Of a DNA stretch of 64,000 bases, positions 10,872 through 12,902 are shown one piece after another. The position numbers and the translations under genes were made by a program. The notes below the pieces were generated by a model. That model ran no database searches. It saw nothing but the letters and a program-made list of their open reading frames with translations, and was not told the DNA's origin. The stretch lies in NCBI GenBank assembly GCA_021372615.1, contig JAJFUB010000085.1:124001-188000 (forward strand), written 5' to 3'. This DNA is from a bacterium. GTDB lineage: Bacteria; Armatimonadota; Zipacnadia; Zipacnadales; UBA11051. Numbering within the stretch: the first letter of the stretch is position 1; each line of letters begins with the position of its first letter.

Positions 10872-12569
10872 CTAGAAGCCCACGGTCACGCTGCCCTGCA
10901 GCAGTTGCAGGTCCTCCAGAGCGGAGTACGCGGCCTGCTGGCGAGCATAGGTCAGGTTCGCGGTGATGCCGTCGGCCAGCTGCTTGCTGGTGCCGATAGC
11001 GAACAGCGCGTCGTACTCTTCGTCCGGGGCGCCATCCTTGGCGTCGCGGTCGAAGTAGGCGACGGTGAAGGGCACGGAGCCAATCCGGAACTCGAGGTGA
11101 CCACCGAGGATGCGGTAGCCGGTCTCAACCAACGGATTGCGGAGCCACTTCTCCCACGGTACGGGGCCGCCGGCGTACGCCGCAGCGTCCACATTGGCAT
11201 CCACGACTTCGTAGTACGGGGTCAGGGCCGAGTACACCGGGGCGTAGTTGACATCCGCCTCGCTGTAGTAGCCGGTCAGGCGCCAGTTGCTGCCGCGCCA
11301 GATGTCGGCCGACGCCATGATCGCCATGTTGTCGTCGTCGATGTCAGCGTCGCCGCCCTGGGGGCTAACCGCGCGCTTGAGCTGCTGGGCCACTTCCACG
11401 CGCACATCGCGACCCCAGATCTGAGCGGACAGATCAGCCGACCAGCCCTGCTCCTTGTTCACGCCGTCCTGGAGCCAGTTGAAGCCGAGGGCCCATGTCG
11501 GCCGCGCATACGCCGCGCGGGCGCTGATGTAGCCATCGTTGTAGCTCCAGACGTTCTCGAAGTTGTAGTTCCAGTCATAGGGGCCGTTCACGCCATCGGT
11601 GAACGTCCCACTGACACCGCCGCCGAACACATCAAGATCGATGTTGGTGTCGAAGACGTCCTTGACCTGCAGGCGAACGCCCTGCTGGCTCTCCCGCTCG
11701 TTGTTGACGAGCAGGCCCATGCCGTAGCTCTGGAACTGCCGACCGAAGGACCACGTGGCGGGGGTCAGCCAGGTGCTGTTGGCAACCAGCACGGCCTCGT
11801 CCAACCAGATGTTCTCGCCCCAGTTGCTGTCGACCGGCCGCTCGTACGGATAGACCGGGGTCCAGATCGTGTAGGGCGCGTCGGAGTCGCGGACCTTCAG
11901 AGCCAGGCGAGCGGACAGCGCGTCCGTGACCTTGCCCTGAACGCCGACCATCGCGGTCATGTTGTCGCAGGTGCTGTCGAAGTCGAGCTTGTCGCCCGCC
12001 AACGCCATGCGGTAGTCAATCCAGCCGAAGACCTTGGGGCCCTTGGCCTGCTCTTCGAGATAGGTGACGCGGTCCGTCAGGTCCGCGACATCATCCGTCA
12101 CAGCATCCAGGTCGCCACGCATGTCCTTGAGCTCGTTCTTGAACTCGTCGCACAGCTTGTTGACCAGAGCGGCAATCTTGGCCTCGTCAACAACACCCGC
12201 CGGGCCCTGCTTGCCCTCGGGACCCGCGGGGCCCTGAGCGCCAGCAACACCGGCAGCGCCGGCCTGACCGGCCGGGCCCTGGGGGCCCTGCGGGCCCTGG
12301 GCGCCGTCCTTGCCGTCCTTGGGCGCCTGCTGCTTCACGACGTCGAGCAGCCGGCTGATGGCCATCGCGAACTCGTAGCGAGTCATCGCGCGGTCGCCCT
12401 TGAAGGTACCATCGGGGTAGCCGATGATAATGCCCTTGTCCACGAGCTGCTGAACCGCGTCATAGGCCCAGTGGTCGAAGGGGACGGTCTGCGCCGGGTT
12501 GGCAGCCTGCGCAAAGACAGGCGCCGCGACGATTACGGCCAGTACGGCAACCACAATCAGCTTCCTCAT
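10872..12569 (-). CDS. SLH-domain outer-membrane porin with collagen-like stalk
   Basis: A 565-residue envelope protein. Residues 1-22 form a signal peptide (cleavage near AQA). Residues 29-75 are one SLH domain (FDHWAYDAV, GYPDGTFKG, MTRYEFA), which in OmpM/SlpA-type proteins binds the cell wall. Residues 86-125 are about 13 Gly-X-Y triplets rich in Pro. Residues 128-175 look like a coiled coil. The rest is rich in alternating aromatic/polar strands, ends in Phe (VTVGF), and should be a beta-barrel. It probably tethers the outer membrane to peptidoglycan and forms pores, as a trimer if the stalk folds. The leader of about 260 bases is long and structured, and the gene has its own terminator, so strong, regulated, single-gene expression is likely. 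Confidence 0.85.
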   Translation of the reverse strand: MRKLIVVAVLAVIVAAPVFAQAANPAQTVPFDHWAYDAVQQLVDKGIIIGYPDGTFKGDRAMTRYEFAMAISRLLDVVKQQAPKDGKDGAQGPQGPQGPAGQAGAAGVAGAQGPAGPEGKQGPAGVVDEAKIAALVNKLCDEFKNELKDMRGDLDAVTDDVADLTDRVTYLEEQAKGPKVFGWIDYRMALAGDKLDFDSTCDNMTAMVGVQGKVTDALSARLALKVRDSDAPYTIWTPVYPYERPVDSNWGENIWLDEAVLVANSTWLTPATWSFGRQFQSYGMGLLVNNERESQQGVRLQVKDVFDTNIDLDVFGGGVSGTFTDGVNGPYDWNYNFENVWSYNDGYISARAAYARPTWALGFNWLQDGVNKEQGWSADLSAQIWGRDVRVEVAQQLKRAVSPQGGDADIDDDNMAIMASADIWRGSNWRLTGYYSEADVNYAPVYSALTPYYEVVDANVDAAAYAGGPVPWEKWLRNPLVETGYRILGGHLEFRIGSVPFTVAYFDRDAKDGAPDEEYDALFAIGTSKQLADGITANLTYARQQAAYSALEDLQLLQGSVTVGF

Positions 12570-12902
12570 TAGCTTTCTCCTCCTTGTATTCCCTTGGGGG
12601 CCGGGGCGCCCCGAGACAACTCGGGATCGCGGGCCCCGCGGAAGGCGGACGCGGGAGGAGCGTTGCCGAAGTGACCATGTTTCCTTCGGGCTTGCTCCAG
12701 AGGCGAACCGTTCCCTCCGCTCTCCAAGCGTTGGGACCTGACGATCAGGCGGGAGTCCCTCCCTTCGGTGCCGGTGTGGACCGTCAGAACGCGAAGATAC
12801 GTGTTGTCACTATCCGTCAAAGTACGCTATGCACGCCTGTTACAACCGAAAACAGGTTAGCACACCCTGTTGGCGGAAGTCAACCTCGAATCATGGCGGC
12901 GA
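12570..12902 (-). promoter_or_regulatory. Long structured leader and upstream region of the SLH porin gene
   Basis: No gene fits here. On the minus strand several hairpins precede the ribosome-binding site (AAGGAGGAG at about 12580). One is GGGAG/CTCCC. A compound one has GGAGC/GCTCC enclosing CCGAAG/CTTCGG, and another has CCCGAG/CTCGGG enclosed by GGGGC/GCCCC. I do not recognise a known riboswitch. Alternatives are an RNA-stabilising leader, an autoregulatory site or a new ncRNA element. Confidence 0.45.
12794..12820 (-). promoter_or_regulatory. Possible promoter of the SLH porin gene
   Basis: On the minus strand TTGACG and TATCTT are separated by 15 bases, shorter than ideal. It would give a leader of about 220 bases. 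TTGTAA...TACTTT slightly upstream is an alternative. Confidence 0.3.

Follow-up and report, generated by a model that had tools for sequence, protein, structure and literature searches.

Introduction

The outer-membrane tethers of early-branching diderm bacteria have so far been described as coiled-coil stalks. SlpA of Deinococcus radiodurans (7zgx) consists of an SLH domain, a stalk and an outer-membrane barrel and spans the periplasm; its stalk is a long coiled coil of 28 nm, and the word collagen is absent from the accessible part of its description (PMC9388160). The trimeric OmpM1 of Veillonella parvula (8bym, 8bys, 8bz2) likewise joins a single SLH domain, a coiled-coil stalk and a porin barrel, and no collagen is mentioned in the corresponding part of that paper (PMC10628300). 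Both agree, as far as these texts go, with the original prediction that the link in known tethers is a coiled coil only. Armatimonadetes are named among the phyla with SlpA-like/OmpM proteins (PMC9388160, same part).

The protein analyzed here is encoded in a stretch of 64,000 nucleotides (the window) within a 6.41 Mb assembly; among the named relatives found, Candidatus Zipacnadia (candidate division WS1) and further Armatimonadota are the closest. It carries a run of Gly-X-Y triplets between the SLH domain and the coil. A conserved, unusual variant of the OmpM/SlpA tether is real, and a triple helix with a spacing role is well motivated by the sequence comparisons described below.

Organization of the gene and its product

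The gene is made up of the following features, given in window coordinates:

10872..12569, minus strand: whole gene, SLH porin with collagen-like stalk (open reading frame of 565 aa plus stop, ATG start)
12510..12569, minus strand: probable signal peptide, residues 1-20 (read by eye: basic residues, then a hydrophobic stretch)
12366..12473, minus strand: SLH domain, residues 33-68 (PF00395, E 1.5e-10)
12189..12314, minus strand: collagen-like segment, residues 86-127, 14 unbroken Gly-X-Y triplets (PF01391, direct reading and sequence statistics)
12048..12185, minus strand: predicted coiled-coil helix, residues 129-174 (AF2 helix, heptads, length of about 50 residues in relatives)
12054..12071, minus strand: RhxxhE motif, residues 167-172 (RVTYLE), in the end of the coil nearest the membrane (conservation and motif statistics)
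10875..12038, minus strand: predicted outer-membrane beta-barrel, residues 178-565, 18 strands, C-terminal Phe (AF2, Foldseek, VIA)

The SLH domain matched PF00395 with 41.3 bits against a cut-off of 20.8, and residues 86-125 matched PF01391 (Collagen) with 28.6 bits against a curated cut-off of 27.2. The predicted helix of 46 residues has hydrophobic residues at 71% of its a/d positions in the best heptad register. The AF2 barrel strands lie between residues 179 and 564, with pLDDT mostly 85-97 in the strands and lower in the loops, and F565 is the terminal aromatic residue of the barrel. The layout proposed from the sequence, in which the SLH domain of a porin tether is followed first by a collagen-like stalk and then by a coiled coil, is confirmed by both Pfam models and by the AF2 helix and barrel; the proposed count of about 13 triplets is corrected by direct reading to one more. 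In the AF2 monomer of the full protein the triplets appear as a low-confidence coil, and such a model neither favors nor refutes a triple helix or rigid rod. Prediction of the stalk alone from single-sequence input was poor and uninformative (mean pLDDT 55).

A profile built from 27 proteins matched the SLH parts of SlpA (7zgx, E 9.5e-24) and OmpM1 (8bys, E 2.5e-22) in the PDB, and the best Foldseek match of the predicted model was OmpM1 (8bym, E 3.8e-11). VIA-align ranked AlgE (Z 24.6) and OprD-type porins (about 23) above OmpM1 (8bys, 17.8), in a list that does not exclude protein families absent from it. Antisense to nearly the whole gene runs an open frame of 555 codons (window 10905-12572, plus strand); GC-rich codon usage most likely accounts for it. 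The neighboring genes, for an enolase, a Gfo/Idh-type oxidoreductase and an FkbM-type methyltransferase, give no functional hint.

Sequence of the collagen-like segment

When the 42-residue segment was shuffled 100,000 times, the longest run obtained was 9 triplets against the actual 14, and shuffling of the surrounding 112-residue region gave at most 8. The window run uses several different X/Y pairings and does not keep to a single Gly codon, and is therefore not a simple DNA repeat. Across 117 proteins with 1459 triplets, the X and Y positions differ in composition: counts in X versus Y are 820 versus 268 for Pro, 17 versus 192 for Gln, 196 versus 113 for acidic residues and 56 versus 176 for basic residues. 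The commonest triplet type is GPA (357 of 1459). Lys/Arg in Y followed by Gly and Asp/Glu in X was observed 108 times, 2.8 times the 39.0 expected with X letters shuffled (35.7 with triplets shuffled) and a count reached in none of 2000 shuffles, whereas the reversed charge order stayed at expectation (13 vs 12.7). In a subset of 48 less related proteins the corresponding values were 35 vs 13.4 and, for the reverse, 8 vs 9.4. This directional pair is the same one reported to stabilize collagen peptides, in which KGE/KGD pairs raise the Tm by 15.4-17.5 C via inter-chain salt bridges (PMC7824840, accessible part).

Most Gly columns of the run are invariant or nearly so in 27 aligned proteins, and four Gly codons are in use in the runs. 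A pairwise comparison of relatives (25 pairs) showed synonymous differences at 192 of 320 Gly codons (60%) and residue changes at 360 of 640 X/Y positions (56%); these pairs were chosen for equal run length, so that Gly retention among them is partly by construction. Purifying selection apparently acts on Gly while X/Y residues and Gly codons diverge, and the segment looks selected for a triple helix. No PF13640-type hydroxylase was found in the window's genome. A helix would therefore probably lack hydroxylation, and the 14 triplets may by themselves give it no more than marginal stability.

Distribution in Armatimonadota

Relatives of the protein are present in 278 of 291 genomes of the phylum. 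Loci were extracted by a regular expression for the SLH region, with start codons guessed by script; in one round the expression recovered no ORF from 8 of 42 new loci, which were left out, and deduplication over a 150-residue stretch left 231 distinct proteins, of which 8 under 200 aa were omitted from the tally. At least 5 triplets occur in 132 of the 223 relatives of at least 200 aa, a share that may be overestimated because proteins were chosen by match to P0001 or L068, both collagen-bearing. The other 91 are without collagen, which is therefore not essential to the tether. The run is single and unbroken in 122 of the 132 collagen-bearing proteins and interrupted in 10; its length ranges from 5 to 54 triplets (median 13, IQR 10-15).

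Counted by family-level group, collagen is present in 25 of 40; by genus, in 61 of 109; and by sampled genome, in 87 of 167. Chthonomonadaceae loci carry 8-12 triplets (L195 9, L214 8, L223 12). The 15 groups without it are f15, f16, f20, f21, f24-f27, f29, f34, f35, f41 and f43-f45, and in lineages such as f24-f27 and f45 the linker is a longer coil-like stretch. Conservation among relatives, a check named in the original prediction, is thus strong, and the stalk, supposed there to be rare in outer-membrane porins, turns out to be common within this phylum.

On a tree of 89 proteins, made with the collagen columns left out, collagen presence changes 6 times, compared with about 30 times when labels are shuffled. 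With six changes, and with Sporomusa placed apart from the two remaining outgroups, the tree does not separate gain from loss and so does not decide for a single gain. No GXY run above 3 was found in seven SLH proteins of Deinococcus, Oceanithermus, Thermus, Sporomusa and three cyanobacteria, which represent plasmid records only (7 of 43 matching records, annotation as given); their barrels were taken unchecked, and L273, with 389 aa, is short for a porin.

Some arrangements depart from the common layout. L211:2956-4341 and L212:2956-4341 have an SLH domain, 7-9 triplets, no recognizable coiled coil and a different barrel, which in L211 matches Porin_O_P (PF07396); the SLH-collagen stalk seems to be portable. 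L337 (G256:C15 near 10746) has an 8-triplet run upstream of the SLH domain, a second arrangement of collagen and SLH. The window's genome also encodes two proteins that lack an SLH domain and have Gly-Met-Pro/Gly-Ala-Pro rich runs matched by the Collagen profile (G000:C43:66635 and G000:C90:59649; L004, L006).

Stalk length and the coiled coil

Collagen-bearing relatives vary in the length of the collagen segment but hardly in that of the part between the triplets and the barrel (median 50 residues, IQR 48-51.5); the linker of collagen-free proteins has a median of 87 residues. Helical residues have a rise of 0.15 nm, and the rise per collagen triplet is given as 0.86 nm in the accessible part of PMC7824840. 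Estimated stalk lengths have medians of 18.1 nm with collagen and 12.9 nm without, in a table that includes the coil-free outliers L211/L212, and collagen and coil lengths are positively correlated in collagen-bearing proteins (rho 0.43). A fixed total stalk length within the phylum was rejected, since the medians differ and the correlation is not inverse. Family f3 (L023, L025, L027) has the longest segments, of 44-54 triplets split by an interruption into two runs, which would extend for about 38-46 nm if helical. The SLH porins L081-L110 (class of G080) have a longer coil-like linker of about 88-102 residues instead of collagen plus coil.

Residue R167 is invariant and E172 nearly invariant in the 27 aligned proteins. 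The RhxxhE pattern to which they belong, which we take to be a trimerization motif, lies within the coil in 86 of 115 relatives with collagen and in 79 of 89 without; among windows of the barrels it occurs in 1 of 457 and in 2 of 486, respectively, and among shuffled coils in about 3%. These statistics favor trimerization. The homologous OmpM1 and SlpA are trimers, according to the accessible parts of PMC10628300 and PMC9388160; the RhxxhE motif is not named in that of PMC6191539.

Triplet number in paralogs

By Pfam model, the window's genome has two SLH matches, this protein and L041, a diverged paralog on another contig with 13 triplets and 36% identity outside the stalk. In the 36 genomes that have more than one collagen-bearing paralog, the 44 pairs with less than 60% identity outside the stalk, taken as diverged, differ by a mean of 1.2 triplets, compared with 3.3 between genomes. 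With one pair from two paralog groups in each of 23 genomes, the mean difference was 1.09 against 2.02 after permutation (P 0.00065, rho 0.78), partners being swapped within families and L211, L212 and L324, which have a different barrel, left out. With one pair per genus (13 genera) it was 1.0 against 1.89 triplets (P 0.004).

A length match between paralogs of one genome is what a cell-specific spacer predicts. Tentatively, the triplet number of a periplasmic triple helix may act as a ruler that sets the distance between outer membrane and wall in much of Armatimonadota, with paralogs held equal; lineages would then have settled mostly on 6 to 20 triplets, and one family on 44 to 54. That family, f3, was uninformative as a test of the ruler: a single SLH porin was recovered from each of G254, G256 and G257, where the remaining matches were SLH proteins of other kinds, and none was recovered from G255. 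The match could also come from gene conversion between collagen segments or from mixed trimers, and not from a ruler of periplasm depth, an explanation that is possible but rather doubtful and that is a separate question from the triple helix. X/Y identity is 0.444 between same-genome paralogs (0.354 expected from composition) and lower, 0.331, between genomes (0.313 expected), with 0.399 for orthologs (0.352 expected), as conversion or mixing would have it; SLH identity, however, is without such an effect (0.726 within and 0.721 between genomes), and several pairs of equal length, such as L155/L035 and L174/L034, are far apart in X/Y.

Proposed architecture and alternatives

The protein is likely an OmpM/SlpA-type outer-membrane tether and porin with a two-segment stalk, in which a trimeric coil and a short collagen helix act as a stiff spacer. 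The C-terminal 18-strand barrel would be embedded in the outer membrane and the N-terminal SLH domain would bind the cell wall through a presumptive ligand. About 50 residues adjacent to the barrel would form a three-stranded coiled coil that trimerizes the protein and sets the register, and a short collagen-like triple helix of 14 triplets, about 12 nm if helical, would follow next to the SLH domain. Together, coil and collagen would measure about 19 nm if helical, and the stalk is probably a stiff spacer between membrane and wall.

The window's genome encodes a CsaB homologue (286 bits vs a cut-off of 213.1); in other bacteria this enzyme produces the pyruvylated cell-wall polymer to which SLH domains bind. 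No OmpA-type domain was found in this genome. Across the phylum, 216 of 291 genomes contain a domain of the OmpA-type family, to which MotB-type domains also belong, and the SLH porins may therefore not be alone as tethers.

The triplets might instead form a flexible, disordered tether rich in Gly and Pro, with only the SLH domain and the coil trimerizing and with composition, not geometry, conserved. Low pLDDT over the triplets and the few interrupted runs would fit such a tether, but it would need neither direction-specific charge pairs nor X/Y asymmetry, and the strict period of three, kept unbroken in nearly all proteins, and the near-invariance of most Gly columns speak for geometry; disorder is an unlikely explanation. 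Repeat slippage in GC-rich DNA, by which run length would drift without function, is disfavored and highly improbable. The use of four Gly codons, most of which differ between relatives, the retention of collagen in 25 of 40 groups with few state changes on the tree, and the matched triplet number of diverged paralogs all argue against it, even if the dominance of GPA-type triplets and the differing run lengths of lineages are what slippage might leave behind.

Comparison with known systems

Cyanobacterial SLH "iron uptake porins" (NF033921) likewise combine an SLH domain, a coil with a similar EF..EL motif and a barrel; unlike the window protein, three of three examined have no GXY run above 3. 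The NF033921 label itself (por_somb, iron uptake porin) was rejected, with a score of 59.5 against a cut-off of 100 and a match to the SLH part only. The collagen adhesins Lcl and SclA/SclB were also discarded, their matches covering the triplets and edges only.

With OmpM/SlpA proteins the window protein shares a homologous N-terminal SLH domain, a coil between SLH and barrel, and a C-terminal barrel with an aromatic end; a point of difference from OmpM1 is that the barrel is predicted here with 18 strands. The coil-only stalk, a descriptive trait of the described members, is not found, given the 14 Gly-X-Y triplets, and the protein is therefore filed as a variant and not as a standard member; the Sporomusa relative examined has no collagen run.

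An open-access literature search, in which the papers returned were judged by title, found none on collagen in an SLH porin, and "collagen" is absent from the accessible part of the Zipacnadia paper (PMC10290634). If the proposed architecture is true, this would be the first periplasmic collagen described, as far as that search showed, and bacterial collagen would serve as an internal structural spacer and not as a surface adhesin. The natural length series, from 5 to 54 triplets, bears on whether tether length sets periplasm depth.

The nearest precedent, as far as the accessible part of its description goes, is Bucl8 of Burkholderia, which likewise has a collagen-like triple helix, demonstrated by CD, on a trimeric outer-membrane protein (PMC7682875). 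Bucl8, however, is an efflux channel of another family, and its collagen is an extracellular (GAS)n segment and not a wall tether (PMC7682875).
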